From Methanofollis aquaemaris (GTDB lineage: Archaea > Halobacteriota > Methanomicrobia > Methanomicrobiales > Methanofollaceae), in the NCBI RefSeq assembly GCF_017357525.1, contig NZ_CP036172.1, forward strand, positions 186,001 through 250,000: DNA of 64,000 bases, written 5' to 3'. Both the position numbers and the translations under genes were made by a program. The notes below the pieces were generated by a model. It ran no database searches. It saw nothing but the letters and a program-made list of their open reading frames with translations, and was not told where the DNA came from. Shown here piece after piece: positions 13,899 to 62,545 of the stretch; position 1 is the stretch's first letter; the number at the start of each line of letters is the position of its first letter.

Positions 13899-16852
13899 CC
13901 CACGACCTCAAAGAAAAGACCGAAGTCGAAGACCCCGCCATCGAGGTGCTCACCCAACACCTCGGCTGGACCGAACAAACCGCCCAGGAAGCCGACAAAC
14001 TCCGCCCCTCGCGGAAAGAGCCGGTCCTCGTCGAACTCCTCAAAGAGAAGATCCAGGACCTCAACCCCTGGATCTCAGAAGAAAACGCTGACCGCGTCGT
14101 CCGTCATATCACCACCCTCCCGGCCACGTCAGTCCTCGAAGCCAACGAAAAAATCCATGCCATGCTTGACCTCGGCACCACCGTCCAGCAGGACCTCGGC
14201 GACGGATGGGGCGAACGGAGTCGGACCGTCAGGCTCATCGACTACGACACCATCGAAAACAACGACTTCACCGTCATCAGACAGTATCCCGTCGAACACT
14301 ACTCACCCTGCATCCCTGACATCGTCCTCTTCGTCAACGGCATCCCGGTCACCGTCATAGAGTGCAAAAGCCCCTACATCAACAAGGCGATGGCCGAGGG
14401 CCTCAAACAACTCAACCGATACCAGGAAAACGGTTCAAAGTTCAGAAACCAGGGATGCCCGCAACTCTTCAGGACCGCCCAGATCCTCATCGCCACCCAC
14501 AAACTGGTCGCCAAGGCCGGGACCAACTACGCCCCGCTACGCCACTGGTCTGAGTGGAAAGACCCCTGGCCGCTGACCCTCGAGGACCTCACCCTCACCC
14601 TCGGCAGACTCCCTACCTCCCAGGACACCCTGCTCTTTGGCACCTGCTCGAAGGAAAATCTCCTCGACCTCATCAGGAACTGCACCGTCTTTGAGCGTGA
14701 AGCCGGCCAGGCGGTCAAGAAAATGGCCAAGTATCAGCAGTTCAGGGCCACCGACAAAATCCTCAAACAGGTCACCGCACCCAAACGCAAAGGCGGGTTT
14801 GTCTGGCACTGGCAGGGAAGCGGGAAGAGCCTCACCATGGAGTTCACCGCCGTCAAACTCCGGCGGAACAAAGCCCTTGCCAACCCGACCATCGTCGTCG
14901 TCACCGACAGGACCGACCTTGACCAGCAGATCCACGGCACCTTCCTCCACTGCGGCTTCCCCAACCCCACCAACGCCAGCAGCGCCGCCGACCTCAAGGA
15001 GACCCTCTCCCATCCTGTCGGCCAGACCGTCATGACCACCATCCAGAAATTCCAGGACGCCGCCGCAGTCTACCCCACCCTCACCAAGGAGAAGAACGTC
15101 TTCGTCCTCGTCGACGAGGCGCACCGCAGCCAGTACAACATCCTGGCGGCCAACATGCGCAAGGCCCTCCCGAACGCCTGCTTCATCGGCTTCACCGGCA
15201 CCCCTGTCTCTCAGAAAAAGCGCGACACCTTTGCCGAGTTCGGTGACTGCATCGACCGCTACGATCACCGGCAGTCGGTCACGGACAAGATCACCGTCCC
15301 GATCTACTATGAAAGCAGGCTGCCGAAACTCTCCATCACCGGCAACAACCTGAAAGATCTCTCGGAGCGCCTCTTCGGCGGCTACTCCGACGAACAGCAG
15401 GCGGCCTTCGCCAGGAAGTACGTCACCAAGACCGCCATCGCCATCGCACCCGACCGGGTCAGAAAGATCTGTGAAAACCTCCTCGACCACTACCAGACCC
15501 AGATCGAACCCAACGGATTCAAGGCCCAGATCGTCGCCCCCAACCGTCTCGGGGCGGTCCGGTATAAAGAGGCGCTCGAAGCCCTCGGCAGACATGACTG
15601 TGCCGTCCTCATCTCCACGATGCACAACGATGAAGAGCGGTTCAAACCCTACCACACCTCAAAGACCGAGGAACAGGAGATCATCCGCCGGTTCAAAGAA
15701 GACGACGACCTGAATATCATCGTGGTCTGCGACAAACTTCTCACCGGCTTCGACGCCCCGCGAGAACAGGTGATGTACCTTGACGGTCCCCTCAAGGAGC
15801 ACACCCTTCTCCAGGCCATGGGCCGGGTGAACCGTCGGCACAAAGGCAAAGAGTACGGCCTTGTAGTCGACTACTGGGGCCTTGGCGACGCCCTCCGGGA
15901 CGCCCTCAGCATGTACGACGACGATGACATCGAGGGCATGGTCCACACCGACTTCAAAAAAGAGATCCTTCCCCACCTCCAGGCGGCCCACCGTGCCGCC
16001 ATGAACTTCTTCGCACCGGTGCCGAGGATGAACAGGGACGAGGACTACAAACAGGCCTGTATCCTCTACCTCAAGCCCGAAGACTACCGGATCTCCTTCG
16101 ACCAGAAATTCAAACGGTTCTCCCAGTACCTTGACGTGCTCCTCCCCGACCCCGAGGCCCTGCGCTATGTGCCAGACCTCAAATTACTCGCCGACATCCG
16201 CATTGGGGCGCGGAACATGTTCAGCGAGGACGACGACCCGATCGAAGACCTCGGGGCAAAGGTACAAAAGTTCATCGACGACCATCTCAGGGCCGACGGG
16301 ATTCTCAGGGTCTGTGAACCGATATCCCTTTACTCGACGAATTTTGAGACCGAAGTGGGACGGCTCAATTCGGACGACGCCAAGGCGAGCATGATCGAGC
16401 ATGCCGTCAAGCGGGAGATCCATCTCAAACTCGATGAAGACCCGGTCTTCTATGAAGACCTGCTGGCCCGCCTGAACCGGATCATTGAGGACTACGAGCA
16501 GGATCGGATCACCAGTGCCGAGCGCCTCACCCGCCTCACCGGGGTTCTCGACGATGTCAAACATCCGCAGAGACATGCCGAGACCCTGGGCCTCGACCCT
16601 GAGGTCGCACCCTTCTATCGGGTGATGGCGGCAGATATCGAGGATCCGGAACCTCTCAAGGAGGCGGCGACAGAGATCTGTGCGGTCATCAAGGAATATG
16701 CCGTGATCGACTGGCAAAAGAAAGAGGACACCAAGCGGGTGATGCGCCAGAAGATCAAGCGGGTGCTCAGGTCAGTAGGGTATCCGAAGGATCGGGTCCA
16801 TGACACGGCCGTCAATCTTGTCGATCTGGCCGTACGGAGATATCGGGGATGA
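13895..16852 (+). CDS. hsdR: Type I restriction endonuclease, motor/nuclease subunit
   Basis: 985 residues, normal size. Nuclease domain near residues 137-160: HYSPCIPDIVLFVNG then VTVIECKSPY (PD...ExK). Superfamily 2 helicase motor: Walker A GGFVWHWQGSGKS at ~300-312, DEAH box VDEAHRSQYNI at ~405, motif III GFTGTPVSQKK, and motif VI QAMGRVNRRHKGKEYG. The subunit translocates DNA and cuts it remotely when unmodified sites are met. Both starts and stops overlap neighbours (ATGA at each end). C-terminal helical region contacts HsdM/S in the family. Confidence 0.97.
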   Translation: MTHDLKEKTEVEDPAIEVLTQHLGWTEQTAQEADKLRPSRKEPVLVELLKEKIQDLNPWISEENADRVVRHITTLPATSVLEANEKIHAMLDLGTTVQQDLGDGWGERSRTVRLIDYDTIENNDFTVIRQYPVEHYSPCIPDIVLFVNGIPVTVIECKSPYINKAMAEGLKQLNRYQENGSKFRNQGCPQLFRTAQILIATHKLVAKAGTNYAPLRHWSEWKDPWPLTLEDLTLTLGRLPTSQDTLLFGTCSKENLLDLIRNCTVFEREAGQAVKKMAKYQQFRATDKILKQVTAPKRKGGFVWHWQGSGKSLTMEFTAVKLRRNKALANPTIVVVTDRTDLDQQIHGTFLHCGFPNPTNASSAADLKETLSHPVGQTVMTTIQKFQDAAAVYPTLTKEKNVFVLVDEAHRSQYNILAANMRKALPNACFIGFTGTPVSQKKRDTFAEFGDCIDRYDHRQSVTDKITVPIYYESRLPKLSITGNNLKDLSERLFGGYSDEQQAAFARKYVTKTAIAIAPDRVRKICENLLDHYQTQIEPNGFKAQIVAPNRLGAVRYKEALEALGRHDCAVLISTMHNDEERFKPYHTSKTEEQEIIRRFKEDDDLNIIVVCDKLLTGFDAPREQVMYLDGPLKEHTLLQAMGRVNRRHKGKEYGLVVDYWGLGDALRDALSMYDDDDIEGMVHTDFKKEILPHLQAAHRAAMNFFAPVPRMNRDEDYKQACILYLKPEDYRISFDQKFKRFSQYLDVLLPDPEALRYVPDLKLLADIRIGARNMFSEDDDPIEDLGAKVQKFIDDHLRADGILRVCEPISLYSTNFETEVGRLNSDDAKASMIEHAVKREIHLKLDEDPVFYEDLLARLNRIIEDYEQDRITSAERLTRLTGVLDDVKHPQRHAETLGLDPEVAPFYRVMAADIEDPEPLKEAATEICAVIKEYAVIDWQKKEDTKRVMRQKIKRVLRSVGYPKDRVHDTAVNLVDLAVRRYRG

Positions 16853-24271: not shown

Positions 24272-26839
24272 TTGGCTACAGAACTCCAGGAAATACTTCA
24301 ACCCTACATCCTCAGGTTTAAACAGGACTTCCCTGAACTTGAAGAAACAACATCAATTCAGGGGAAGACCGGGCTTGAAAGACGTGAATATGTAAAAAAC
24401 AGTGTCCAGAGATTATTTTCAGAAGACACCGTCGACCACATCACAGAGGACGAACTCGTCGACCTCCTTGACTCTACCACGGCGATGTTTGGTTACATCT
24501 ATGACAGCACCACCCTTCTGGAGGGTGTCGGGCTGGATACCTTCCTGACAAAGATGAAATACCTCCTGTATGGGGGTGGCGACCTTGCCGATCGGTATGC
24601 TGCGTTCATCAACGGCACAAAAAATGTCGGCCCTGCATTGACATCTGAACTCCTCTGCTCATTCTCCCCGGATGAATATGCATGCCTGAACGGGACCGCG
24701 GAGAAGGCCCTGAAGATCCTCGGACTCGACACCATGACCGCTCCAAAGACCGGGAGAAGGTGCGGTGAATACTACCTGGAGTTCAATGAGATCGCCGGCA
24801 AGATCCTCGCTGAGATTAGAGAAGACGCTGATCCACTCTTGCAAAATGCCGACTACTCGACCCTTGATTACTTCCTCTACTCGGTCGCCACGGTCAATTT
24901 CTGGAAGATCGCTCCGGGGAAAAATTCGGAAAATTGGGATCTCTGCAAATCCGAGAATGTCATTGCCGTCGGCGGGGAAGAACTGGTCATACCCTATGGC
25001 GAGTCGATCTTCGATCTCAGTCTGGAAGAACTGAAAGAAAAATATGCCGAGAAAGCGCCGGAGAGTTCAGAAAGGAGCATCAGCAACCAGATGGGCCAAT
25101 ACTACTGTTTTCTCCATGATATCAGGGTCGGTGATCTCGTCCTTGCAAATCGGGGTTATCAGGGCGTTCACGGCTGGGGCGTCGTCGTCTCGGGTCCGAA
25201 AGTACAGAAACAATGGAAATATCCAACCTATCATGAGGTGAAGTGGAGATCCACCGACGAGACGATCGTTGACTTAAAAAAATGCAAGCGGAATTTCCAG
25301 AATACAACTGTAGGACTTTCGTTCAAAGAATTTTATTCCATTGTTGAGGCAGACGGTGTCCTTCGGACAGAAAATTACTGGGTCTATCTCCCTCCCTCTC
25401 TGACAGACGGCCCCTGTGCACCCTTTGAAGACTGGAGAGAGGAGGGAGTCGTCGGTCTCCCATACCGGACACTTGCCGAGAAATACGGGGATGAACTGCT
25501 TGAGTTCTCTGATCCTGAGACCTTCAGGAAAATGATCGGGGACGACCCTGACAAAGACCCGATGAACGCCATCCTGGCCTATACCTTCCTCTTCACCCTG
25601 CAGGAAGGTGATACCATGCTCATCAGCAGAGGCCTGCAGACAGCCGTCGGTCAGGTCGTGGTCGTCTCTGAACCTGAGATTGACCCTGACAGAGAATACC
25701 CTATCTCCCGCGAGGCGGAGTGGGAAATCTTTGAGAATGAAGTTTCCATCCCCTCAGACCTCCAGCACGAACTCATCGATAAAAGATTGGTCAGGATCGA
25801 AAAAGCGGAGTATGAAGCATTGTTCCACCAGGACGCAGACACCATGAACCATCCGGAATTCACAAAAATGAACCGGTTGCTCAGGGCCAAAAACCAGGTG
25901 ATCCTCTACGGCCCGCCGGGCACCGGCAAGACCTACACGGCACAGCGGTACATTGCCGCACACAACGCCGGGACACGCGCCTTCGTCACCTTCCACCCCT
26001 CCTTCGCCTACGAAGATTTCATCGAAGGACTCAGGCCGCGGACCGACGACGAAGGCCGGATCTGCTACGAGATCGATGACGGGATCTTCAAGACATTCTG
26101 CAGGGACGCCTTCAACGCCCTGATGAACGAAGCCGGTCTGGAGCGTCGGTGGGAGAAGGGCAGGAGCGTGCCGGCACTCTCGCCCGAAGAGAAGGCAGAT
26201 GCCCTCGCCGCCCGCGAACGCGTTCCCTTCTTCATGGTCATCGACGAGATCAACCGCGGCGACATCCCCAGGATCTTCGGCGAGTTGATCACCCTTCTTG
26301 AGAAAGACAAGAGACTCTGCACCGAGAACGAACTCGTCACCACCCTTCCGTACTCAAAGACCGACTTCGGCATCCCGCCAAACCTCTTCATCATCGGGAC
26401 GATGAACACCGCCGACCGCTCGATCGCCCTCCTCGACATCGCCCTGAGGCGGCGGTTCGGCTTCATCGAGGTGATGCCCGACTACGAGGTGCTGGAGGAG
26501 ATGCTCGACAGCGACGATCCGGCCGTGCAGGAAATATTCGACCTCGCCGTCGACGCCCTCAGGGAGGTGAACGCCCGTATCACCAGGAACTACGACCGCG
26601 ACCACCAGATCGGCCACAGTTATCTGATGAAACTCCAGGGGTGCACAACGCGGGACGAGGCGGTCGAGGGCCTCCGGACCACCTGGGAGTGCGAGGTCAT
26701 CCCTCTCCTCCAGGAGTACTTCTACGACTCGCCGCAGAAACTCAGGGAGTGTCTCGGTTCTGACGTCGGCATGCCGGACGACGAAGAGGAGTTTCTCAGG
26801 GCGCTCTCCACTCTATCCCCCAACGAGAACCAGGTATGA
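24272..26839 (+). CDS. mcrB: McrB-type AAA+ GTPase with EVE-like reader regions
   Basis: 855 residues. C-terminal McrB motor: Walker A LYGPPGTGKTYTAQRYI at ~545, FVTFHPSFAYEDFIEGLRP, Walker B FFMVIDEINRGDIPRIFGEL at ~650, and the McrB signature IIGTMNTADRSIALLDIAL at ~710. The N-terminal half differs from E. coli McrB. Residues ~210-370 (NFWKIAPGKNSENWDL, HDIRVGDLVLANRGYQGVHG) and again ~440-530 (LQEGDTMLISRGLQTAVGQV, YPISREAEWEIFENEV) look like EVE-type barrels that read modified bases. Start is TTG 24272 with GGTGA seven bases upstream; no ATG fits better. The upstream spacer is AT-rich. Confidence 0.93.
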   Translation: MATELQEILQPYILRFKQDFPELEETTSIQGKTGLERREYVKNSVQRLFSEDTVDHITEDELVDLLDSTTAMFGYIYDSTTLLEGVGLDTFLTKMKYLLYGGGDLADRYAAFINGTKNVGPALTSELLCSFSPDEYACLNGTAEKALKILGLDTMTAPKTGRRCGEYYLEFNEIAGKILAEIREDADPLLQNADYSTLDYFLYSVATVNFWKIAPGKNSENWDLCKSENVIAVGGEELVIPYGESIFDLSLEELKEKYAEKAPESSERSISNQMGQYYCFLHDIRVGDLVLANRGYQGVHGWGVVVSGPKVQKQWKYPTYHEVKWRSTDETIVDLKKCKRNFQNTTVGLSFKEFYSIVEADGVLRTENYWVYLPPSLTDGPCAPFEDWREEGVVGLPYRTLAEKYGDELLEFSDPETFRKMIGDDPDKDPMNAILAYTFLFTLQEGDTMLISRGLQTAVGQVVVVSEPEIDPDREYPISREAEWEIFENEVSIPSDLQHELIDKRLVRIEKAEYEALFHQDADTMNHPEFTKMNRLLRAKNQVILYGPPGTGKTYTAQRYIAAHNAGTRAFVTFHPSFAYEDFIEGLRPRTDDEGRICYEIDDGIFKTFCRDAFNALMNEAGLERRWEKGRSVPALSPEEKADALAARERVPFFMVIDEINRGDIPRIFGELITLLEKDKRLCTENELVTTLPYSKTDFGIPPNLFIIGTMNTADRSIALLDIALRRRFGFIEVMPDYEVLEEMLDSDDPAVQEIFDLAVDALREVNARITRNYDRDHQIGHSYLMKLQGCTTRDEAVEGLRTTWECEVIPLLQEYFYDSPQKLRECLGSDVGMPDDEEEFLRALSTLSPNENQV

Positions 26840-49337: not shown

Positions 49338-49427
49338 TGCTAATTTTAAGTCCATATGACTGCGAAATTTTTCGCACCCAAGGGATCTTATTTTTACCCT
49401 GTGGTTTCATCTCTATGCATGCGACCC

Positions 49428-50990
49428 ATGAAGAAGAACACTGCGCGACGCACCCTCCCCCTCCTGGGTGTGGCCGCCGTCCTCGCCGCCTGTCTTCTTG
49501 CCGCCGGATGCACGGGGCAGACGCCTGACGGGACGGACAATGAAACCGTGCAGGGGATCGATCTGAACGGCACCGCCTGGGATCTTGTTTCGTACGCACA
49601 GAACGGTTCGATGAAGAACACCCTCGAAGGAACCACGGTCTCCCTTGAGTTCGGTGAGAACAACACGGCCGGCGGCTCTGCCGGGTGCAACCATTACTCC
49701 GCCTCGTACACGCTGAACGGTAAAACGATCACCTTCGGCCCCGCGATCTCGACGCAGATGTATTGCATGAAACCGGGTGTGATGGAGCAGGAGAGCGCGT
49801 ACCTCCGACTCCTCGACACGGTGAAATCCTATGAGGTCAGGGACGAGACCCTGACATTCTTCGACGAGAACGGCGCTGCCGTCCTGGTCTTCGCGAAGCA
49901 TCTCCCTCCCGAGCCCGAACCGCTCGTCGGGACAGACTGGGAACTCCGGTGGTACCATGACAAAGAGGCGATCGTCTCTGTCATCTCAGGCACGACCATC
50001 ACCGCCGTCTTCGACGAGGACGGTAAGGTCGCCGGTTCTGCCGGGTGCAACCGCTACTTTGCCTCGTACACGGTGAACGGCACGGAGATGACCATCGGCC
50101 CCGCAGGTTCGACGTTGATGGCCTGTATTGACGAAGACGTCATGAAGCAGGAGAGTACCTATCTCGGACTCCTGAGCACAGTGAAGACCTTCGCGATCGA
50201 GGGTGAGACGCTGACCTTCTTCGACGAGAACGGGACAAAGATCCTTGTGTTCGAGAAGGCCGTCCCTCCGCAGCCCGAACCCCTTGTCGGGACAAACTGG
50301 ACCCTTGAGTCCTACCACACCGGTGACGCCATTGTTTCGGTCATCGCCGGCACCGAGATAACGGCAGTCTTCGACGAAGACGGAAAAGTTGCCGGCTCGG
50401 CCGGGTGCAACCGGTACTTCGCCTCATACGAGGTGAACGGCACTGAGATGACCGTCGGCCCTGCGGGTTCGACCCTCATGGCATGTCCTGACGAGGACGT
50501 CATGAAGCAGGAGAACACCTTCCTCAGCCTCCTCGGGACGGTGAAGTCCTTTGCGATCGAGGGCGACCGCCTCTCGTTCATGGACGAGAACGGCACGGCG
50601 GTCCTGGTCTTTGTGAAGACAGAGGGCCCCACGGCCCTGCCCCTTGTCGGCACCACCTGGGTGCTTGACACCTACCACCTCGGAGACATCGCGGTGCGAG
50701 TCATTGAAGGGACCGAGATCACTGCAGTCTTCGGGGAAGACGGGAAACTCACCGGCTCTGGCGGGTGCAACAACTACTTCGCGACCTACAACCTCTCGGG
50801 GTCGTCCCTGGAGATCGGCCCGGCGGGGTCCACGAAGATGATCTGCGCTGAGCCCGAGGGGATCATGAAGCAGGAGGAGACATACCTGTCGATCCTCAAG
50901 GCCGTGAAGGGCTACGAGATCGAAGGGAACCAGTTGAAGTTGCTCGACATGAACGGCTGGCGGATCCTTCTCTTCAATGCGAAGGTCTGA
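49428..50990 (+). CDS. Lipoprotein with four tandem META-type repeats
   Basis: 520 residues from ATG 49428 (MKKNTARRTLPLLG). Lipobox LLAAGCTG, so secreted and lipid-anchored. Four repeats of ~115 residues, each starting L-N/V-G-T-x-W (LNGTAWDL, LVGTDWEL, LVGTNWTL, LVGTTWVL), with GSAGCNRYFASY or GSGGCNNYFATY, IGPAGST, MKQE-Y and a closing ENGT-x-LVF. META/HslJ domains occur singly in bacteria; HslJ is linked to heat stress and novobiocin resistance. Repeats 2 and 3 are the most alike at DNA level. The gene seems monocistronic. Confidence 0.9.
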   Translation: MKKNTARRTLPLLGVAAVLAACLLAAGCTGQTPDGTDNETVQGIDLNGTAWDLVSYAQNGSMKNTLEGTTVSLEFGENNTAGGSAGCNHYSASYTLNGKTITFGPAISTQMYCMKPGVMEQESAYLRLLDTVKSYEVRDETLTFFDENGAAVLVFAKHLPPEPEPLVGTDWELRWYHDKEAIVSVISGTTITAVFDEDGKVAGSAGCNRYFASYTVNGTEMTIGPAGSTLMACIDEDVMKQESTYLGLLSTVKTFAIEGETLTFFDENGTKILVFEKAVPPQPEPLVGTNWTLESYHTGDAIVSVIAGTEITAVFDEDGKVAGSAGCNRYFASYEVNGTEMTVGPAGSTLMACPDEDVMKQENTFLSLLGTVKSFAIEGDRLSFMDENGTAVLVFVKTEGPTALPLVGTTWVLDTYHLGDIAVRVIEGTEITAVFGEDGKLTGSGGCNNYFATYNLSGSSLEIGPAGSTKMICAEPEGIMKQEETYLSILKAVKGYEIEGNQLKLLDMNGWRILLFNAKV

Positions 50991-52424: not shown

Positions 52425-53147
52425 TCAGAATATATGCTCGGGCTCAAGGTACCCGGATGAGTAGACCACACCGGTCTTGACATCAGAGAGGGTATACTCA
52501 CTGCCGCCGTTGATATCGATCGCACCACTGGACCATGTATCGGTCGGATTATCTGGGTCTCCGCGATCACAGCGGAAGCCGAGTGTTGCTGGCGATCCCG
52601 GAGAGAAATATTCGCAATAGATAATGAATTGCTCCCCTGGTTCCACGATCGGGTCTTTCAGTTCCTCAAGAGTCAGGCCGCTGCCAAATTTCTGCATCCG
52701 ATAGCCTGTTGCTTCCTTAGGGAGTGTAATACTATATTTTCCTTTACCACTCTGGTATCCGCTGTCCTCGACATAGATGAGGCTGACAGGGTCATTATAG
52801 GTCAGAGTAAATGTTCCCTGTGTGCCACCACTCCACTGCGTAAAGCCCAAACCTGTCATATAGTATTTCAGGTTCCTGAGGTCCAGAGTGCCACCGCCAG
52901 CGTTTTTAAAAACAATCCCTATCTGTGCATATGTCCATCGAGGAGGGTGTGATACATCCTTATATCCTCCGGAAGACACGCCGACCAGTTCCACCTGGGC
53001 GTCTGATCCCGTCTCGACCTCGCTGGTAAGCGAGGTTGCAAGGGAACTGACCACCGCCGCAATGATGATCGTCACGACGAGCATCAGCATCACCCCGACG
53101 ACCGGTGAGACCGCATGCTCCCATTCTTGCATCTTTTTCATCACCAT
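52425..53147 (-). CDS. Archaeal type IV pilin-like protein, type B (pair 3)
   Basis: 240 residues. Short N-terminus MVMKKMQEWEHAVSPVVGVM then LMLVVTIIIAAVVSS, the archaeal pilin N-terminal helix (DUF1628/Pilin_N) processed by a class III-like peptidase. Type B features: LKYYMTGLGF, PGEQFIIYCEYF, and a C-terminal SEYTLSDVKTGVVYSSGYL. Last gene of the operon; overlaps the type A partner by seven bases. Secreted and assembled on the membrane, probably by the ATPase/TadC genes on the other strand. Confidence 0.9.
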   Translation of the reverse strand: MVMKKMQEWEHAVSPVVGVMLMLVVTIIIAAVVSSLATSLTSEVETGSDAQVELVGVSSGGYKDVSHPPRWTYAQIGIVFKNAGGGTLDLRNLKYYMTGLGFTQWSGGTQGTFTLTYNDPVSLIYVEDSGYQSGKGKYSITLPKEATGYRMQKFGSGLTLEELKDPIVEPGEQFIIYCEYFSPGSPATLGFRCDRGDPDNPTDTWSSGAIDINGGSEYTLSDVKTGVVYSSGYLEPEHIF

Positions 53148-53869
53148 GTCGCCACCACATCCTGGTCATACACCGTCTGACCGCTTGGTGTGTGGACGAT
53201 TGTTATATGGACAACCGACCCCTCCTGGAAACCATATGCCGTCCGGTCGGTCACATCGAACCCAAGGAACGCGTTCCTGTCCTTGAACCAGTACGGTTCG
53301 CCCGCTTTGAACAGGCAGGTTCCAAAGCACGGGGGATTGCCAACCATACCATTGCCAGGCACAAGACAGTTCATGGCCGAATCTGGAAGAAGACAATAGC
53401 CATTCACCTGGGGAACGAATGGATTGGAGTTCTCGTCCCACACATCATCCTGACCGATCGCACCGTCCAGCGTGTGCTTGATGACCTTGCCGGCATTCTT
53501 CAGAGGAACCCCGTTATAAGTCTCGGGGACCGTGTAGGTGGTGATGATCTGGAGGTCTGCTGAACTGAGCGTGTCTCCAGAGACCATGGTCAGCACCACG
53601 CACTCTGGGGCAGGACCGGGCGCATTAGATTTCACCCCATTCCCAACTTCATCTCCAGCACGGATGCTGATGTCGAATGCCGTCGTCGGTGCCGGTTCGG
53701 CCGAATCACTCAGGCCACCTGAAAAACTGCTGACCAGCGCGGCGACGATGATCGTCACGACAAGCATGAGCATCACCCCGATCACCGGCGAGACCGCACT
53801 CTCTCTTTCGATGAAAAAGGAGAAGGGACTCTCCGTTTCAGGGCTTATTCTCTCTCTGCACATTGTCAT
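53141..53869 (-). CDS. Archaeal type IV pilin-like protein, type A (pair 3)
   Basis: 242 residues. ESAVSPVIGVMLMLVVTIIV is the pilin N-terminal segment. Type A features: FDISIRAGDEVGN, TLSSADLQIITTYTVPE, VIKHTLDGAIG, the RNAFLGFDVTDRTAYGF block and the end IVHTPSGQTVYDQDVVATW. Four Cys late in the protein (VNGYC.., MNCLVPGNG, PPCFGTCLF) are specific to this copy and could form disulfides. Separated by 21 bases from the preceding pair. Confidence 0.9.
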   Translation of the reverse strand: MTMCRERISPETESPFSFFIERESAVSPVIGVMLMLVVTIIVAALVSSFSGGLSDSAEPAPTTAFDISIRAGDEVGNGVKSNAPGPAPECVVLTMVSGDTLSSADLQIITTYTVPETYNGVPLKNAGKVIKHTLDGAIGQDDVWDENSNPFVPQVNGYCLLPDSAMNCLVPGNGMVGNPPCFGTCLFKAGEPYWFKDRNAFLGFDVTDRTAYGFQEGSVVHITIVHTPSGQTVYDQDVVATW

Positions 53870-53890
53870 TCACCTATTCTGAAACGCAAA

Positions 53891-54547
53891 TCACCGCAGG
53901 ATCAGCGTACCCTTCTGGATGGGCTTGCCGCTCAACTGATTGGTGATCGTATACTCGAAGGGCACATCGGCCTGTACCTTGAAGATACCGCCTGTATCTT
54001 CAGGAGACCAGGTAAGGAACCGGCCTTTTACCACGGTTTTGTCGGTGGATTGAGTGCTGTCATAACAGTCATCTGCAACGATCATGAACGAGTCGCCGAC
54101 GGTGATCAGTTCATCGCCGCCTCCAGGGAGTGCGAAATAGGTTTCCTTCTCTTCGGAATCTTTCACGAGTGTCAGTTTCGATTTGTCGACCGCTGTTGAG
54201 GTGCTGTTGAGGTGCGTCTTCATATTGAAGTTCATCACGCTGTCCCCGTTTTTCAACTGGACCGTAATATCCCGCAGCGAGAAAGAATCCCCACCTGAGA
54301 GACGGAACTTAATGCCATTGTTTGGCTTATCGGAATGATCGGGAACGTCATTCGTTTTGTCGGTATCCGTAATGCTGCAGGTGTAAGAAGTAGAGAGCGA
54401 GACCTGCGGTGCAAGCGTCTGGTCCTGTGAAACACTGCCTGAGAATGCACTCACCATGGCGGCGATGATGATCGTCACCACGAGCATCAACATAACGCCG
54501 ACGACCGGAGAGATCGCATCGTCCTCTTTTCTGTTGATTCCAATCAT
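53891..54547 (-). CDS. Archaeal type IV pilin-like protein, type B (pair 2)
   Basis: 218 residues. EDDAISPVVGVMLMLVVTII N-terminal helix. Type B end: VPFEYTITNQLSGKPIQKGT followed by LILR; VGDSFMIVADDCYDS corresponds to the GDRFVIHAD segment of pair 1. The most divergent B copy. ATG overlaps the stop of type A pair 2 (ATGA). Confidence 0.9.
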   Translation of the reverse strand: MIGINRKEDDAISPVVGVMLMLVVTIIIAAMVSAFSGSVSQDQTLAPQVSLSTSYTCSITDTDKTNDVPDHSDKPNNGIKFRLSGGDSFSLRDITVQLKNGDSVMNFNMKTHLNSTSTAVDKSKLTLVKDSEEKETYFALPGGGDELITVGDSFMIVADDCYDSTQSTDKTVVKGRFLTWSPEDTGGIFKVQADVPFEYTITNQLSGKPIQKGTLILR

Positions 54548-55194
54548 TGTACAACCACCCTGCTGCTGAAAAAGCTCTTCTGGCTTGGGAGATGGATGAT
54601 CTCGAAGTCAACCGCAGACCCTCTCCCAAAACCATATTCATTACGCTTCTCTGGTGTCGAGATGTCAAAGCCGAGCACCGTGCTTGTGCCTTTAGACCCT
54701 CCCGTGCTCATGACATCGCCTGAGGAGAAGGTGTACTCCCCGAAGTTCGTCTCATCGTCTCCGGGTGTGCCGCACGCGACATCATTCAGGTACGGGATCT
54801 TTACAGAGGAGATCTCCTCGCCATGGATGATCATCCCTCTCACAGCCTTTGTCGAGGATGTCACCTCACCGCGCTGCATGGTCTTGTGTGTCGATGCTGG
54901 CGGCGTGTAATAACTGACTATCCGCAGGTCGGACGTTGGGATACTGCTGCCCCCGTGGTGTTCGATCAGCATGACATACTGGTCTTTGTGGTCCCCTCCG
55001 TCGGAGATCATTTTTACGTCGATGGCGGCTGAGGGGGCGGTCTCGGTGTTCCCAAAGGCGTCGCCGGCGAACGCCGAGACAAATGCGGCGATGATTATCG
55101 TCACCACGAGCATCAGCATCACGCCGATGACCGGGGATACTGCGTCGGATTTCTCAGAACTCATTTTATCTCTCTTCCAGATCTGCCTGTTCAT
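54544..55194 (-). CDS. Archaeal type IV pilin-like protein, type A (pair 2)
   Basis: 216 residues from ATG 55194 (or 55164). SDAVSPVIGVMLMLVVTIII helix. Type A features: IDVKMISDGGDHKDQ, IPTSDLRIVSYYTPP, VLGFDISTPEKRNEYGFGRG and the end FEIIHLPSQKSFFSSRVVVQ. Overlaps both neighbours by four bases, so translationally coupled. Lacks the final Trp seen in the other A copies. Confidence 0.9.
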   Translation of the reverse strand: MNRQIWKRDKMSSEKSDAVSPVIGVMLMLVVTIIIAAFVSAFAGDAFGNTETAPSAAIDVKMISDGGDHKDQYVMLIEHHGGSSIPTSDLRIVSYYTPPASTHKTMQRGEVTSSTKAVRGMIIHGEEISSVKIPYLNDVACGTPGDDETNFGEYTFSSGDVMSTGGSKGTSTVLGFDISTPEKRNEYGFGRGSAVDFEIIHLPSQKSFFSSRVVVQ

Positions 55195-55868
55195 AACACA
55201 CTTCCTACAAGAGTACCGGAGGAAATGACCGCTCCTGTGTTCTTATCGCTGAGCGTGTACGTTGTCCTGCTGCTCACCTCGAACTCACCGCTGGTGTATG
55301 GTGAGCCCTCCATGCCGCGGTCGGAGACGTACGCCACACGCCCGTACTTGCTCTTACCGTCCTCGATGAAGCGGTCCGCGTGGATCACGAACCTGTCCCC
55401 GGCCTTGATTTTCGAATTGGCAACAGTCGTGGCATAAGATGCATCATTCGTAGCCTTGCCATCTTTATCTACAATGCCGATCTTTTTCATGCGATACGTG
55501 AAATCAGACAAGAGACGGGCCTCATCTGGCACGGGGATATCAAGATACTTCGAGGAGGGGGCATCGGTGTAGGAGATCGAGACCTCGTCCCCCCCTGACA
55601 GGGTCGACTTCAGGTGAAGGTTCATATCTGACAACAGTAACGTCTCTCCTCCCTTGTTCTCGAATACCAGACCAATCTCCCCAAGACTCCCGCTCTGCCC
55701 TGTGAGCACCCCGACATACTCGACCAGGGTGCCTGGTGCTGCGTCGGTGTCCGAGACAAAACCGGTAGAAAATACGCTCACCGTTGCGGCGATGATGATC
55801 GTCACCACAACCATCAGCATCACGCCAACGACCGGGGAGACTGCATCGTCATTCCTTGAATTTACCAC
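55191..55868 (-). CDS. Archaeal type IV pilin-like protein, type B (pair 1)
   Basis: 225 residues. DDAVSPVVGVMLMVVVTIII helix. Type B features: DMNLHLKSTLSGGDEVSISY, AGDRFVIHADRFIEDGKSKY, and TYTLSDKNTGAVISSGTLVG at the end. Overlaps type A pair 1 by seven bases, exactly as pair 3 does. Confidence 0.9.
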   Translation of the reverse strand: MVNSRNDDAVSPVVGVMLMVVVTIIIAATVSVFSTGFVSDTDAAPGTLVEYVGVLTGQSGSLGEIGLVFENKGGETLLLSDMNLHLKSTLSGGDEVSISYTDAPSSKYLDIPVPDEARLLSDFTYRMKKIGIVDKDGKATNDASYATTVANSKIKAGDRFVIHADRFIEDGKSKYGRVAYVSDRGMEGSPYTSGEFEVSSRTTYTLSDKNTGAVISSGTLVGSVL

Positions 55869-56530
55869 GGTACAATCACGTCCTTATCAAAGAGGACCTT
55901 CCCGTTGCCGGTGTGGACGATCATGACGTTCACCGTAACCCCTTCCCCAAATCCATACTTGCTATACACGCCTGTTTCAAATCCGAGGAAGTTGTCACGG
56001 TTGAAGGTGAGGCGTCCGCCCGGCACAAGAGTGGCCGTCCCGAAGGTCTTCTCCGCAGTTCTCGTGGACACGATGCTGTCGTCGTTGGTCACCTGCGGCG
56101 TAAACGGATATCCAGGAACTTCGGTATCAATGGCGTTCTCCTTGACCGGGGCAAGCGATCCGTCGATGGTGTGTTTGATGAGACACCCACTTTTCTCCAG
56201 TTCACTGGAGCCCCACTTTTCGGGAACAGTAAAAGAACTGACGATCTTGAGGTCTTTTGTCGCCAGAGAATCGCCGCCAAGATGTTCGATCGTCACGTTC
56301 TTCTCGTTCGGCCCGGCAAACATCTTGATATCCAGCGTTGCCACCGGCGCCTTCTCACTGGTAGACCCCAGGCCCCCGGCAAAACTGCTGACGATCGCGG
56401 CAATGATGATCGTCACGACAAGCATCAGCATCACCCCGACGACCGGGGAGACCGCATCGTCCCCTGCGCCGGAGTCCGGTTTTTTTCTGCCCCGTAATGG
56501 GGGTGTACATATCCAGGATTGTAAAATCAT
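55862..56530 (-). CDS. Archaeal type IV pilin-like protein, type A (pair 1, first gene)
   Basis: 222 residues. The pilin segment DDAVSPVVGVMLMLVVTIII follows an unusually long basic N-terminus (about 25 residues), so the true start may lie further in. Type A features: LDIKMFAGPNEKNVTIEHLG, LATKDLKIVSSFTVPEKWGS, LIKHTIDGSLAPVKE, DNFLGFETGVYSKYGFGEGV and the end IVHTGNGKVLFDKDVIVPW. First gene of the six-gene operon, facing an AT-rich divergent promoter region. Confidence 0.9.
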   Translation of the reverse strand: MILQSWICTPPLRGRKKPDSGAGDDAVSPVVGVMLMLVVTIIIAAIVSSFAGGLGSTSEKAPVATLDIKMFAGPNEKNVTIEHLGGDSLATKDLKIVSSFTVPEKWGSSELEKSGCLIKHTIDGSLAPVKENAIDTEVPGYPFTPQVTNDDSIVSTRTAEKTFGTATLVPGGRLTFNRDNFLGFETGVYSKYGFGEGVTVNVMIVHTGNGKVLFDKDVIVPW

Positions 56531-56778
56531 GGCGTCGCTTCTCCATAAACAAATTAATCCAAACTATGACAATAAATTTGTATTATGATATTTCGTAATT
56601 TGATATTTAAACTTTCTTACGGCTTATCGTAGCATATGGGTTGTTTTCTTAAAATAATGCTCTGCAATCTCGCCTATCGGGGTTGCATGCCGACACTGCA
56701 TTGCGATCAAATAAAATAGCGATAAAGCAAACATTTTTGATATGGCGGCCAATCTCCGCCTCATGGAGTCTCACGATT
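56531..56778. promoter_or_regulatory. AT-rich divergent promoter region, pilins versus surface operon
   Basis: About 250 bases, markedly AT-rich at 56560-56660, with TATA-like words (TTTGTATTATGATATTTCG, GATATTTAAAC). It must contain both promoters. I see no clear palindromic operator. Confidence 0.55.
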
Positions 56779-59310
56779 ATGAATCAATATCGGATCATAG
56801 CAGTCCTGTGTATGGCGCTCCTTCTCCTGGCTACAGCCACTGCAATCACTTCAGCGCGTTTCTCAACCCCTGAGGGGCCCAACGCAGGGATAAGTCCTGG
56901 AGATACCATTTTTATAGGGGAAAGAGAGGTAAATTTCTCGGCCTATTCTGACTCCACAAAAGGAGATCCGGTGCGGATCGTAAGAATTGACGAGTCCGGA
57001 CAGCAGGTCGACCCGATTGCGATCACCGACAATGTCGCAAACTACATCCGCGGGAAACCAGGGCAGTATTACCCTGTTTACAGCGATGGAAACCGCAGTG
57101 AGAGCAGGTACTGCCTGATACAGAATGCTGCCGACAGCCTGGGGCAGATGATGATACGCACGGTCGGGACAGATATCAAGCCTGATACCAACCCCAGCCG
57201 GCAGGATGCCATCCCCTACCGGATGGGCATACAGTTCCAGATACCTGACCATAACCTCCCCCTCAATCAGTTTCAAGATTCATCATGGTATGAGTACGAA
57301 CTGCAGGGCAATATCAGAACACACAGCATAATCAACACCGCTGGAAGTACGGTCTCTCTCGAAGACCTCGCCGCAAACCCTGCAGTACCAGACAATAATT
57401 ATGTGTTCCGTCTCTCCGATCAGAGAGCAATCTCTCCTGGCAGCGACGCAACGATGGTGTTCAGGATGACCCTGAATGACCTGAACTATGAACTGCCGTA
57501 TTCATTCAGGGTACAGGACTACCCGCTTACCCTTCAACTCTCTGAGAGTTCGGTGCAGCGTAACGACGACCTCATACTCACCGTCAAGGGCATGCCCTTC
57601 ATGCAGTACGACCTCAGCCTGCCTGTTCCCGAGAATGGAGAAGACTTCCCGTTCTTCGACGGGGGCGGATGGGACGAGCCAAAGATCTCGGACTATCACG
57701 TGCGTGCCCACCCGGGGTGGGACGGAGAGGTGCGGCTGAACATCCATATTCCAAAAGGCGCTCAGCCCACCAGTTATACCGTCTCCGCGACCGGCCCCGG
57801 CACCGTCCAGCCGGTGACGGCGACCTTCTACATCGACCAGAAGGCCATAAGCCTGATCTTTGATGAGCCCGACCAGAACCAGTACGCCATCGGAGATATC
57901 ATCGAATTATCAGGGACCCTGAAAAATATCGACAAAACATCTGCAACAAAGCTCATTCCGATCTATCTCTCAGTCACAGGGCCTAACCTGCCCCCGAACG
58001 GTGCCCCTCTCACTGATCCGTCACAGGAAGTGGTAGACGGCGTCCCGGATTCGTTCACCGTCACCTCGTACAATCCGGTCTTTGGAATATGGAGTTACAA
58101 CTGGGAGACCTCGAAGTTCTCCTGCGATGAAGGGACCTACACCGTCCACGCCAACCTCCAGCCGATCGGGTATCAGAAGAGCAGTTATCCTGGTGCTCCA
58201 GGGTCCATCGACGGCGAAGTCCCCCCCTCGTGGGAGTATGAACTGAGCAGCCCGACCCTTCACGCGAAGTTCGACGAGAATACCGGGGGAGTCTTTGCCC
58301 GCGGGGATTATCTCTATTCCTGGTGGTATGCCAGGGGGAGCCCGGGCAACACCGGGATGACAAGTTCCACCGGTCACATGAAGTGGTACATCTTCGGCCC
58401 CAACTTCAGGTATGCCGACTTCAACCCCAGGTTCCCGCTCGGTGACAAAGAAGAAAAAGGTTCATACGGCATTACCCACTCGCGCAACTTCACCTATGAC
58501 CTCTCCCCGGGGAACTACTTCATCGTCTACCAGCACCCGGGACATGACGGCCAGTTCGGCCTCCTGCCAGAGAATAGCCTCTTTTTCAGGGGCAATCTGA
58601 GAGAATTATTCGATGTGAATAATGGAAACGTGCTCGTCGACCTCGGGAGACTTGATGCGAAAAACGCCGCCGACGCCATGGTGAAGGCGCTGGACTCGCC
58701 GAACATCGACGACACCTTCGTGATGGACACCTTTACCGTCGAAGATCCCCTGATCCGGATCCGGCCGCCTGGCGACCTGGTCGTCGGTGATAAAATGGTC
58801 GTCGAAGGAAACACCAACCTTGCCGGAAAGGGAACAACCGCCGACGGCACAAATGTTGCCGACAAATTAACCCTGAAGATTACTGCGCTTGATCTCTATG
58901 ATTCAGGCAAGGCAAATACCGTCATGAAGATCCCGGTCGACTACACGACTCCAGGGAAGTATGACTCCTCCAGCGGACTCCGTCCGTTCTCCTACGACCC
59001 GGTCGACACCAGTTCATGGTACCCGGGAAAGTACGAGATCACCGTTCAGTGCAAGGATGTCAAGTACAAAAGTACCACCACCTTTGAACTCCTTCGAGAG
59101 GGAAGCCAGAGGACTATCTCAGTGAGCGAACCCGAGCAGGATCCATCCATTCCCGTCACCTCTGCACCAACCTTCACTCCCGACCCGGGCCTCACCCCTG
59201 CCCACGTCGACGAGACCACGCCCATACCCATGACCACCCGGTCTCCTGGTTTTGAAGCATACCTCGCGGTTGCCGCAGTCATCGGGGCGCTTGTCGTGAG
59301 GAGGAGATAA
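56779..59310 (+). CDS. S-layer-like surface protein with PGF-CTERM-type tail
   Basis: 843 residues from ATG 56779, preceded by GGAG; a longer frame to 56683 is not signal-like. Signal peptide IIAVLCMALLLLATATAITSA. The body resembles Methanomicrobiales S-layer-type (DUF3821-containing) glycoproteins: GDTIFIGEREVNFSAYSDST, and several Ig-like repeats. The tail is Thr/Pro-rich, then SPGFEAYLAVAAVIGALVVR and RR, fitting a PGF-CTERM signal recognised by archaeosortase A. Followed after two bases by the transglutaminase-like gene. Probably a glycosylated exported protein; whether it is the main S-layer or a pilus-associated protein cannot be told. Confidence 0.88.
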   Translation: MNQYRIIAVLCMALLLLATATAITSARFSTPEGPNAGISPGDTIFIGEREVNFSAYSDSTKGDPVRIVRIDESGQQVDPIAITDNVANYIRGKPGQYYPVYSDGNRSESRYCLIQNAADSLGQMMIRTVGTDIKPDTNPSRQDAIPYRMGIQFQIPDHNLPLNQFQDSSWYEYELQGNIRTHSIINTAGSTVSLEDLAANPAVPDNNYVFRLSDQRAISPGSDATMVFRMTLNDLNYELPYSFRVQDYPLTLQLSESSVQRNDDLILTVKGMPFMQYDLSLPVPENGEDFPFFDGGGWDEPKISDYHVRAHPGWDGEVRLNIHIPKGAQPTSYTVSATGPGTVQPVTATFYIDQKAISLIFDEPDQNQYAIGDIIELSGTLKNIDKTSATKLIPIYLSVTGPNLPPNGAPLTDPSQEVVDGVPDSFTVTSYNPVFGIWSYNWETSKFSCDEGTYTVHANLQPIGYQKSSYPGAPGSIDGEVPPSWEYELSSPTLHAKFDENTGGVFARGDYLYSWWYARGSPGNTGMTSSTGHMKWYIFGPNFRYADFNPRFPLGDKEEKGSYGITHSRNFTYDLSPGNYFIVYQHPGHDGQFGLLPENSLFFRGNLRELFDVNNGNVLVDLGRLDAKNAADAMVKALDSPNIDDTFVMDTFTVEDPLIRIRPPGDLVVGDKMVVEGNTNLAGKGTTADGTNVADKLTLKITALDLYDSGKANTVMKIPVDYTTPGKYDSSSGLRPFSYDPVDTSSWYPGKYEITVQCKDVKYKSTTTFELLREGSQRTISVSEPEQDPSIPVTSAPTFTPDPGLTPAHVDETTPIPMTTRSPGFEAYLAVAAVIGALVVRRR

Positions 59311-59312
59311 AC

Positions 59313-61001
59313 GTGGACCTCACCTTCGACGAGTCGCTGTTCAAGAAAGTCATCGCCGTTCTTGTGATAGCAATTATTATCGTCGGCGCCATCGCCACCC
59401 TCAAATTTACCGGTCTTCTCGGTGACGACGGCGACGGCCCCCTCGGTCCAGGTCAGGTTCCTTCGACCCCTGAACTCGACGAACCCGACTTCGAAGAGCA
59501 GGAGAGACAGGTCGCCGGACCAAAGTCCTATAACTGGACCTATCGCGGGACCCAGATGGAGATGGACCTCTTCATCTCCAACGCCACCTACCAGCACTTT
59601 GTATCTTCGTCGTACGGGACCTATGAAGACAAACCACAGCGCATGGCAGAATACGTCGTGACCGACGGCGATGACGGGGTCGTCGGCACGATCGCAGAAT
59701 GGTTCCTCACCACCTCTCTGGCCGCGGGCTACGGGGACCGCGACACCGTTGGCAATGTCCTCGCCTTTGTGGAGAACCTCACATACACCACGGACGAAGA
59801 ACGCCGGCAGACCGGAGCGTACCCGAACTACCCGGCCATCACTCTTGCTACCCAGGAAGGGGACAGCGAGGACCACACCATCCTTGCCGCCGCCATCCTC
59901 CATCAGATGGGGTACGGTGTCTCCCTCCTCTATTATCCCGCACAACTCGACCGGCGCATGATCATCCCCGAGGCCACCGCACTCGGCATCGTCAGCGACG
60001 GTGCCCTTCCGGGACGGACTTACGGGGCCGTTGCGGAAACTCCGGCGGGCAAGTTTGTCTACGACGCCAGGAACAAGACCGCTCTCACCCCCCTCCCCGA
60101 AGGGTGCGATGTAGGATCCGGGTGGTACTCGGGCGACGCCGTCTGGCACAACGCCACCTCCTCAGGTTCCCTTGACGATGTACGCTACTACCCGGCAAAC
60201 CGAACCTTCGTCACCTGGACAGACCTGCCTGACGTCGATACTATCGTCATAGAGAACGCCGTCTGGAACCAACCGCTCCTCATCACCGCGGCCTGGACCG
60301 TGAACACCACGGAGAAAGGCATTCCCCGCGGCGCATACGACGGGATGGAGCCGTTCTTCAACGGCGGCGACGGCCTCTGGCAGGGCTGGACCGTCTCGCG
60401 GGACGACCGTCTCGATGCCGGCACCACCATAGCCGGGAAACAACCCCTCAATGAAGCCCCCCCGTTTTCGGCGAACGAGAGTCTTACCGCAGCCCTTCGC
60501 ATGCCGGCCTCTGAGTTCACCTCGCCGCTGATCACCTGGCTTGAACCGGTACAGGAATACTATGCCGACACCTGGTACCCCTCCGGGATCGCCTGGACCT
60601 ATGACGACAAATGGCACCTCCACGAGAACATCCTCGAGATGCAGGACTCCCTGCTTGAGAACCCGGAGGACTACTCGCTCCGGGGTGTCACCGAGGTCGT
60701 CGCACCGGTCCCCTGGCGGGTCTCCTATACGGTCCGGAAGATGGACGAGGACCATACAGAGAAAGAGATGACCCCGTACAGCGACGTGAGGTTCGCGGTG
60801 TACCGCATCGAAGACGGTGCCGCCGTCTTTGACCGGACCTTTGGGTGGCAGACGATCTACGGTGCGGATGTGCGGAAAAACGAGGCTGTATTTGGCGCTG
60901 GAGAATATGCGCTGGCAGTTTTTGTCAGGAACTGCGAGGTGGACGTGGCCATCGAATATCACGGCACACCGGCTGAAAAGACCTATCGTGGAGGGATATG
61001 A
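59313..61001 (+). CDS. Membrane-anchored transglutaminase-like protein, catalytic Cys replaced
   Basis: 562 residues from GTG 59313. One N-terminal anchor (VIAVLVIAIIIVGAIATLKF), the rest extracellular. Residues ~130-260 have a transglutaminase-like core: DRDTVGNVLAFVENLTYTTD, then EGDSEDHTILAAAILHQMGY, where active members read GDCED. Ser185 takes the place of the nucleophilic Cys, and the expected His position reads GRTYGAV. Asp-like DARNKT is kept. So the fold may be structural or binding only. Sits between the surface protein and the secretion ATPase; overlaps the latter by four bases. Confidence 0.87.
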   Translation: MDLTFDESLFKKVIAVLVIAIIIVGAIATLKFTGLLGDDGDGPLGPGQVPSTPELDEPDFEEQERQVAGPKSYNWTYRGTQMEMDLFISNATYQHFVSSSYGTYEDKPQRMAEYVVTDGDDGVVGTIAEWFLTTSLAAGYGDRDTVGNVLAFVENLTYTTDEERRQTGAYPNYPAITLATQEGDSEDHTILAAAILHQMGYGVSLLYYPAQLDRRMIIPEATALGIVSDGALPGRTYGAVAETPAGKFVYDARNKTALTPLPEGCDVGSGWYSGDAVWHNATSSGSLDDVRYYPANRTFVTWTDLPDVDTIVIENAVWNQPLLITAAWTVNTTEKGIPRGAYDGMEPFFNGGDGLWQGWTVSRDDRLDAGTTIAGKQPLNEAPPFSANESLTAALRMPASEFTSPLITWLEPVQEYYADTWYPSGIAWTYDDKWHLHENILEMQDSLLENPEDYSLRGVTEVVAPVPWRVSYTVRKMDEDHTEKEMTPYSDVRFAVYRIEDGAAVFDRTFGWQTIYGADVRKNEAVFGAGEYALAVFVRNCEVDVAIEYHGTPAEKTYRGGI

Positions 61002-62545
61002 TGTTCGACTTCTCTTCACTCTTTAGAAAGAAAACAAAAGAGATCCCTTCAGAAGATATTGCAGCAGATGAAGTTCCGGACCCCGACCCTTTCATCCTGG
61101 ACCTTCCCCCCGCAGACCCGGCAGTGGATATGATAGAACGGTACTGGCTGGTCCCCCCCTTCTCGTACGTCAACATCTCCCGCGGGGACGCGGCCAGTCT
61201 CAGGTACGAGATCGTCGAACCCGGGGTCTCGGAAAAAGAACTGATCATCCTTGAAGAGACGTTTGACCAGCTCAGGGCAATGCTGATCTATGATACCGCT
61301 CGCAAGAGAGGCGAACTCGATCTCGATCCAGATCTCCTGAGAAAGGTGATCCGCTCTTTTGACCCGGAGATGCCTGATGAACGGATGGAAGTTCTGGTAT
61401 ATTATCTCAGGCGCAACTTCCTCGGCTACGGGAAACTCGACCCCCTGATGAACGACGATAAGATCGAGGACATCACCTGCAACGGCCCTGACATCCCGAT
61501 CTTTCTTTATCACCGGAAATATGCCAACATTCAGACAAACTGCATCTATGACAATGAAGAACTGAACAAGTTCGTGCTCAAACTTGCCCAGAAGGCCGAC
61601 AAACAACTCTCACTCTCGACCCCCCTCATCGACGCCGCCCTCCCCGAAGGTTCGAGGGCTCAGATCACCTACTCTGACATCATCTCTTCCAGGGGGAGTT
61701 CATTCACCATCAGGAAGTTCAAGGCCGACCCCATGACCCCGGTCGATCTCATCGAGAACCAGACCTACGACGCCGACCTTATGGCCCACATCTGGCTTGC
61801 CGTCGAGAACCACAAGAGCATGATCATCTCAGGCGGGACCGCGAGCGGCAAGACCTCGACGATGAACGCCACCTCCTTCTTCATCCCGGCGGTGGCAAAG
61901 ATTGTTTCCATCGAGGATACCCGCGAGATCCAGCTCCCGCATACCAACTGGCTTCCGATGCGGACACGCGAGAGCGCCAATGCGAGCGGCACCGGGAATG
62001 TCGGGATGTTCCACCTCCTCAAAGCGGCACTCAGGCAGCGGCCGGAGTATATCATCGTCGGCGAGGTGCGGGGGGAAGAAGCGCAGACCCTCTTCCAGGC
62101 GATGAACACCGGGCACACCACCTACTCCACCGTTCACGCAGGAAACGTGCGGGAGACAATAAACCGCCTGACCCACGACCCCATCAACGTCCCGGTGGCA
62201 ATGTTTAACGCTCTTGATCTGATTCTCGTACAGAGTCTCCTCTATGATAAAGGCAGAGGATTTCGCCGATGTCTCTCACTGAACGAGATCAAGGTCGTCG
62301 ACGATGAAATCAGGTGGGAACCGCTCTTTTCCTGGGACCACCGGACTGATCAGTTTGTCAGGGTGTACAGGCAGTCGACGGTCTTTGATGAGATCGCCTA
62401 CCAGAATGGGTGGGACAAAGAGCAGTTAGAATCAGCACTTGCTGTTCGCAGAAACGCTCTTGAGGAGATGGTCCGGAAAGGCGCCCCCTCTCCTTCGATG
62501 GTCGGGCGGATGATACAGGGAATGACCGTGCAGGAACAGCGATGA
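60998..62545 (+). CDS. Type II/IV secretion ATPase (GspE/FlaI/TadA family)
   Basis: 515 residues. Walker A MIISGGTASGKTSTMNATSF, Asp box IVSIEDTREIQLPHTNWL, Walker B EYIIVGEVRGEEAQTLFQA, His box MNTGHTTYSTVHAGN. N-terminal domain typical of the archaeal family (FLGYGKLDPLMNDDKIEDIT). Cytosolic hexameric motor for pilus assembly. ATG overlaps the previous stop (ATGATG). Together with the next gene and the divergent pilins it makes a complete archaeal type IV pilus set. Confidence 0.95.
   Translation: MMFDFSSLFRKKTKEIPSEDIAADEVPDPDPFILDLPPADPAVDMIERYWLVPPFSYVNISRGDAASLRYEIVEPGVSEKELIILEETFDQLRAMLIYDTARKRGELDLDPDLLRKVIRSFDPEMPDERMEVLVYYLRRNFLGYGKLDPLMNDDKIEDITCNGPDIPIFLYHRKYANIQTNCIYDNEELNKFVLKLAQKADKQLSLSTPLIDAALPEGSRAQITYSDIISSRGSSFTIRKFKADPMTPVDLIENQTYDADLMAHIWLAVENHKSMIISGGTASGKTSTMNATSFFIPAVAKIVSIEDTREIQLPHTNWLPMRTRESANASGTGNVGMFHLLKAALRQRPEYIIVGEVRGEEAQTLFQAMNTGHTTYSTVHAGNVRETINRLTHDPINVPVAMFNALDLILVQSLLYDKGRGFRRCLSLNEIKVVDDEIRWEPLFSWDHRTDQFVRVYRQSTVFDEIAYQNGWDKEQLESALAVRRNALEEMVRKGAPSPSMVGRMIQGMTVQEQR

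Follow-up and report, generated by a model that had tools for sequence, protein, structure and literature searches.

Closest Described Pilin Systems

Among the described systems closest to the locus considered here is that of Haloferax volcanii, in which several paralogous pilins with a near-identical H-domain (PilA1-PilA6; PilA family arCOG02416) go with PilB3 and PilC3, in clade 2 of the euryarchaeal type IV pili (T4P) (Makarova et al., 2016). Here we describe an array of six pilin genes in a stretch of 64,000 nucleotides of the Methanofollis aquaemaris genome (contig NZ_CP036172.1, positions 186,001 to 250,000; hereafter the window), a genome of 2.75 Mb in a single contig. Its products share with the Haloferax system a PilA-type N-terminus, and the best match among solved structures of A, one of its two pilin classes, is a Haloferax T4P (8fj5). 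The main text of Makarova et al. presents a surface-layer (S-layer)-like protein, such as is encoded beside the array, as typical of PilA-based systems (PMC4858521). Unlike in Haloferax, whose pilA genes are not co-regulated with the assembly genes (PMC4371748), the window holds one array of two classes in a fixed A-B order, beside dedicated ATPase, S-layer-like and transglutaminase-like genes.

For a filament made of A and B together, the working model is the archaellum of Methanocaldococcus villosus, where ArlB1 and ArlB2, two paralogous subunits of the pilin superfamily, alternate in one filament (PMC8821640). The window array differs from it in having three pairs and in lying below archaellum cut-offs; membership in an archaellum was rejected, as PF01917 reaches 14.9 of 29.5 bits, in B3 only, and the archaellum motor NF058587 375.5 of 550 bits. 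Two major pilins, PilE1 and PilE2, also share a filament in the T4P of Streptococcus sanguinis, which is bacterial, places its subunits stochastically and leaves single mutants still piliated (PMC10628169). The Aap pilus of Sulfolobus acidocaldarius comes from an archaeal T4P cluster that likewise holds a pair of pilin genes (PMC11178815); however, it has just these two pilins and AapB alone forms the filament, which is the chief caution against reading heteropolymers into gene pairs.

Within the Methanomicrobiales, the main text of Makarova et al. links T4P to a transglutaminase-family surface protein, arCOG03450, earlier suggested to be a peptidase or processing enzyme, and reports PilA-like pilins and an ATPase in one locus of Methanocorpusculum labreanum (PMC4858521). 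This arCOG03450-linked euryarchaeal T4P is very probably the same system as the window array, and the transglutaminase-like protein of the window is likely arCOG03450 itself. The two pilin classes, the orthology of pair positions across families and the loss of a nucleophile cysteine, which are described below, are absent from that main text (PMC4858521). The literature searched yielded no description of the classes or of the orthology, although supplementary tables outside the search may mention them, and a search of titles and abstracts on Methanofollis or Methanoculleus pili found no report on these pilins.

Two Pilin Classes in Three Pairs

An earlier note on this DNA had read 52425-56530 as six pilin genes of two types, A and B, in the order A-B-A-B-A-B. 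All six open reading frames lie where it placed them, on the minus strand, and match Pilin_N (PF07790) at 57.8-89.3 bits, above its curated cut-off of 25.2 bits; coordinates and head classes bear out the order A1-B1-A2-B2-A3-B3. The clades T1 to T3 refer to the pair positions, or slots, discussed in the next section.

55862..56530, minus strand: pilin A1, 222 amino acids (aa), PF07790 89.3 bits, T1 slot clade; cleavage predicted between GDD and AVSPVVG, ahead of a hydrophobic helix; head beta-rich
55191..55868, minus strand: pilin B1, 225 aa, GTG start, PF07790 60 bits, T1 slot clade
54544..55194, minus strand: pilin A2, 216 aa, PF07790 84.4 bits, T2 slot clade
53891..54547, minus strand: pilin B2, 218 aa, PF07790 72.1 bits, T2 slot clade (98/99)
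53141..53869, minus strand: pilin A3, 242 aa with 6 Cys, PF07790 68 bits, T3 slot clade
52425..53147, minus strand: pilin B3, 240 aa, PF07790 57.8 bits, T3 slot clade (95/97)

Every one of them carries a class III signal peptide with predicted cleavage, in which charged residues are followed by A-[VI]-SPV[VI]GVML, and the N-terminal helices are near-identical across the six. With this common helix stripped, the head domains fall into the two proposed types: comparisons between A heads give global z values of 10.7 to 20.9 and those between B heads 11.6 (B1-B3), 5.6 (B1-B2) and 3.5 (B2-B3, the weakest; B2 is the most diverged of the B pilins), whereas all A-B combinations stay at or below 3.0, near background. 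In profile-profile comparison the two classes match with a probability of 97.9 % (E 5e-13), and they thus read as distant paralogues. AlphaFold2 models of A1 and B1, two of the six pilins, have a helix at 4-27/28 and strands after it, with a mean predicted local distance difference test score (pLDDT) of 84.8 and 81.3, respectively; the best fold match of A is the Haloferax pilus named above and that of B, a weak one, the two-subunit M. villosus archaellum (7ofq). In sequence searches of solved structures, useful matches of both classes were confined to the N-terminal region, the nearest for A being the H. volcanii T4P pilin of 8fj5 (E 2e-9, N-terminal part).

Overlaps of 4-7 bases had been proposed inside each pair. 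Within pairs this is the case (A1/B1 7 bases, A2/B2 4, A3/B3 7), but B1/A2, which lies between pairs, overlaps by 4 bases too, and B2 and A3 are separated by a gap of 21 bases; in the window array, overlaps by themselves do not delimit the pairs.

Conservation and Duplication History of the Array

A- and B-head profiles were searched in 150 genomes of the order Methanomicrobiales and 60 loci were parsed for pair order. The A-B pair, which the earlier note had suggested looking for in these relatives, is the dominant arrangement: a B directly follows 105 of the 134 A genes, the remaining ones standing before an unclassified pilin (12), before another A (8) or without an adjacent downstream pilin (9), so that unpaired single types do exist as a minority. 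In 90 of the 105 cases A and B overlap by 4 or 7 bases, B-to-A junctions range from -77 to +54, and across the 60 loci such an overlap nearly marks the A-B pairs. The complete A-B-A-B-A-B array is present in four families (f1, f2, f4 and f6): the parse holds 14 of them and one more whose first A falls outside the detection rule but is there in a named-genome copy of that contig, and a sixteenth three-pair array, cut by a contig end, comes from another f4 genome. All six genes are retained in every one of the 15 intact three-pair arrays. The same parse contains four loci with ABAB arrays, and loci with one A-B pair occur frequently. A scan of named genomes with a narrower A alignment returned only six loci.

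In the A tree, slots T1, T2 and T3 form one clade each (93, 98 and 97 in the Shimodaira-Hasegawa-like approximate likelihood ratio test, SH-aLRT); in arrays of two pairs, T1 and T3 group with the first pair and T2 with the second, beside single pairs. The B tree repeats this pattern (support of 87, 99 and 100 for T1, T2 and T3), its T3 clade containing also one long-branched D1 sequence. A joint tree, built from 66 heads, keeps A and B fully apart (100/99 each), without any mixing of the types, and accounts for the six slots with five changes, the fewest possible. Moreover, approximately unbiased (AU) tests reject both the three A genes of the window (p 2e-69) and its three B genes (p 1e-4) as single clades, by which a recent or lineage-specific duplication is ruled out. 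The trees thus give slots 1, 2 and 3 as orthologous across four families of Methanomicrobiales. Since A and B tell a matching history and window-specific clades are rejected, they also show pairs being duplicated as wholes, from AB through ABAB to ABABAB, ahead of the divergence of the families, barring a later move of the complete array from one family to another. The pair duplicated as a unit, as had been supposed, is also what relatives with one, two and three pairs look like; what needs correcting is its age, the six genes being old, orthologous and apparently non-redundant members of one accessory system.

Two arrays stand apart in their grouping. An f6 array (L062, in G048) groups with f2 in all six slots and may have moved as a block between families, in which case part of the spread would be horizontal. 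A Methanoculleus metagenome-assembled genome contributes a contig of 6.5 kb (L058, in G147) whose place among Methanofollis sequences may come from misbinning or from transfer.

The ratio of non-synonymous to synonymous substitution rates (dN/dS) against genus orthologues is 0.09-0.29 over the six genes (0.16-0.23 for B3, whose identity to its genus orthologues is the lowest of the six), and all six products have been kept under purifying selection since the families diverged. The similar N-terminal DNA might have let genes convert one another or exchange cassettes, but this found no support: in the N-terminal codons 9 of 57 bases differ between paralogues vs 0-7 between genus orthologues. Because paralogues diverge there more than orthologues, the likeness of the helices is best read as selection on the protein sequence.

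For outgroups a phylum-level search was used, as a class-level one reached, among the genomes listed, the same order only. Outside the order, its loci hold A orthologues (profile score 207) that directly precede a shorter second pilin, slightly nearer to B than to A (profile scores of 105 and 93, respectively). Arrays of the form A-p-A-p, in which p stands for this second pilin, occur in one genus of another family of the phylum. As outgroup A orthologues also stand before a B-leaning pilin and such arrays exist, the two-pilin unit is probably older than the order. Three two-pair arrays of the A-p-A-p kind (L132, L134 and L136), from another family of the phylum, look independent.

At the scale of the genus the system comes and goes. 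Arrays are present in 7 of 12 genomes (three pairs in 4, two pairs in 3), fragments in G051 and nothing in the other 4, and the 8 genomes with an array or its fragments, and no others, contain close orthologues of both the ATPase and the transglutaminase-like protein. Because these orthologues track the array, the pilus system is a co-inherited optional module in the genus.

Promoter-Like Region and Assembly Operon

Upstream of A1, a divergent intergenic region separates the array from the genes that would assemble its products:

56531..56778, no strand: divergent intergenic region with a conserved TATA-like box and GGAG for the pilin array
56683..59310, plus strand: S-layer-like secreted protein with a PGF-CTERM-like end; partial match to NF041431 (207 bits), below cut-off
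59313..61001, plus strand: transglutaminase-like protein, membrane-anchored; weak match to DUF553, below cut-off
60998..62545, plus strand: pilus assembly ATPase (PilB/TadA type), PF00437 115 bits
62542..64000, plus strand: platform protein (PilC/TadC type), PF00482 57.4 bits, extending beyond the window end
L016:2637-3697 (G000:C1, about 1.6 kb beyond the window end): fourth A-B pair, 163 + 190 aa, 4-base overlap, end of the operon

A single TATA-like box, TTTAAATA (56611-56604, minus strand), which we infer to be the promoter of the array, and a GGAG at 56544-56541 lie upstream of A1, and the intergenic region with this box is kept in four members of the genus. For the S-layer-like gene the listed start is TTG, an ATG at 56779 being likelier. 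The PilC-type gene carries on at L016:20-1339, and beyond the window end the assembly operon adds two minor-pilin-like genes and then the fourth, diverged A-B pair; this layout recurs in L115, L116 and L118, and is found in loci of Methanofollis, Methanocalculus and Methanomicrobium mobile. The PilB and PilC genes (PF00437 and PF00482) are divergent from the array, a linkage kept in most loci. Because three other strong PF00437 ATPases exist elsewhere in the genome, the array system is to be seen as one among a number of systems for secretion, pili or archaella.

An S-layer-like gene adjoins all 19 two- or three-pair loci, divergently except in L069, where it lies beside, and none of the 24 single-pair loci (Fisher p 1e-12, an overstated value since the counts share phylogeny); at multi-pair loci the transglutaminase-like gene nearly always comes next. 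This last protein has GDSEDH where a nucleophile Cys is expected in the GDCED-type motif of transglutaminases and cysteine peptidases. None of 26 homologues has Cys at this site, Ser/Arg/Thr/Lys-type residues being found instead, and for this reason the protein is probably not a peptidase or processing enzyme. It would rather be a scaffold or binding protein, probably a pseudoenzyme tied to multi-pilin arrays; a sequence search of solved structures gave no match for it.

Another type of multi-pilin array, with orders such as AABABB (L093, L095-L098), occurs in Methanofollis and family f2 beside S-layer-like, transglutaminase-like and ATPase genes of its own and, in most cases, a PilC gene. Directly downstream of the window array, and kept beside it in Methanofollis relatives, lies a gene for a secreted protein with four META domains (49356-50990). 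Farther away, likely defence genes encode a SIR2-like protein (7813-9726), a type I restriction R subunit (13895-16852) and an AAA_5 ATPase (24272-26839).

One Pilus System or Several

The best explanation, which we would hold at about an even chance, is one accessory PilA-type system in which A and B occur together in filaments and three specialised pairs are co-expressed. The array would encode the structural pilins of a T4P of the euryarchaeal PilA/PilB3 kind; the six genes would be co-transcribed from one promoter, their products cut by a class III prepilin peptidase at sites with DD before the cut and AVSP after it, and polymerised by the PilB ATPase and PilC platform that are encoded next to the array and dedicated to it. 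More conjecturally, A and B may co-assemble as heterodimers or mixed strands, the three specialised pairs may supply different surface properties or segments of the same pilus system, and the S-layer-like and transglutaminase-like partners may anchor the pilus or let it through the envelope. The sharing of a filament by A and B is the least certain step, for and against which we find the balance nearly equal; it is favoured because one-to-one duplication and overlapping genes speak for a similar stoichiometry. A stricter version, in which A and B alternate in an obligate multi-subunit pilus and the three ancient pair types hold distinct positions or segments, is doubtful; if true, such a filament would be more complex than any archaeal T4P solved so far.

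Several observations weigh against this explanation. The A1 slot clade is weak in the joint tree (39/80), and the Foldseek match of B is poor (E 1.6e-3, template-modelling score 0.33). Mirror-tree analysis, with raw correlations of 0.79-0.96 for all A-B combinations shown, found no excess within pairs (A_i-B_i) once the common signal was removed, and so lends no support to specific partners. Furthermore, paired pilin genes need not co-assemble, as the AapB-only filament of S. acidocaldarius demonstrates (PMC11178815).

The latter case, with AapA beside AapB, is also the precedent for the possible, if tentatively held, alternative that the filament shaft is built of a single class, probably A, while B pilins cap, initiate or decorate it (PMC11178815). 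B3 is the fastest evolving pilin (dN/dS up to 0.23), B heads are less conserved than A heads (mean column identity of 37 % vs 44 %), and A heads are better kept across the phylum (hhalign 207 vs 105 for the partner). However, the 4- and 7-base overlaps and the one-to-one duplication in the main arrays suggest similar amounts of both, and the assembly operon already holds separate minor-pilin-like genes.

The earlier note had tentatively proposed three alternative heteropolymers. In this view each pair, or even each pilin, would make its own pilus depending on conditions, as interchangeable paralogues in the manner of PilA1-6 or of ecoparalogous archaellins. The near-identical N-terminal helices speak for it, and each of the six H. 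volcanii pilins, with their conserved H-domain, is sufficient for a pilus (PMC4371748; main text of PMC4858521). Nevertheless, the compact, overlapping array leaves no intergenic room for separate promoters, and slot order and all six genes are kept over four families. Given a single compact array that follows one conserved promoter-like region, an old triplication, constant retention and purifying selection, six non-redundant parts of one system fit at least as well, and the supposition, mildly disfavoured, is unlikely.

Not every archaeal protein that bears a pilin-type signal is part of a pilus. The six products could in the same way stay in the envelope as an S-layer-associated adhesion or secretion complex without an extended pilus, a very improbable reading to which the large heads and the invariable presence of an S-layer-like gene beside multi-pair arrays lend something, but which must face a dedicated PilB ATPase and PilC platform, filament polymerisers in studied cases, and a best structural match of A to a pilus filament subunit. 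Finally, we give almost no credence to a tandem amplification of recent date or a store of variant cassettes for antigenic variation or phage escape, for although tandem layout and similar N-terminal DNA could permit recombination, the AU tests, the slot orthology across families, the lack of concerted evolution in the N-terminal codons and dN/dS values well below 1 all speak against it.

Implications for Archaeal Pili

As six genes are kept in the same order in relatives of four families, the array would seem to serve a surface filament whose subunits are of several kinds and cannot replace one another, and not to be a set of spare copies. The non-archaellum archaeal pili cited here whose composition has been resolved consist of one pilin, the two-subunit archaellum of M. 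villosus being the archaeal exception; in this context, a two-class, three-pair array with its slots kept over four families argues strongly, by comparison, that certain archaeal pili require more than one kind of structural subunit. Multi-pair pili are now linked, in addition, to an S-layer-like protein and to a transglutaminase-like protein devoid of its nucleophile. Related species that differ in pair number (one, two or three), such as Methanocorpusculum petauri and Methanomicrobium mobile, offer ready systems for work on these filaments.

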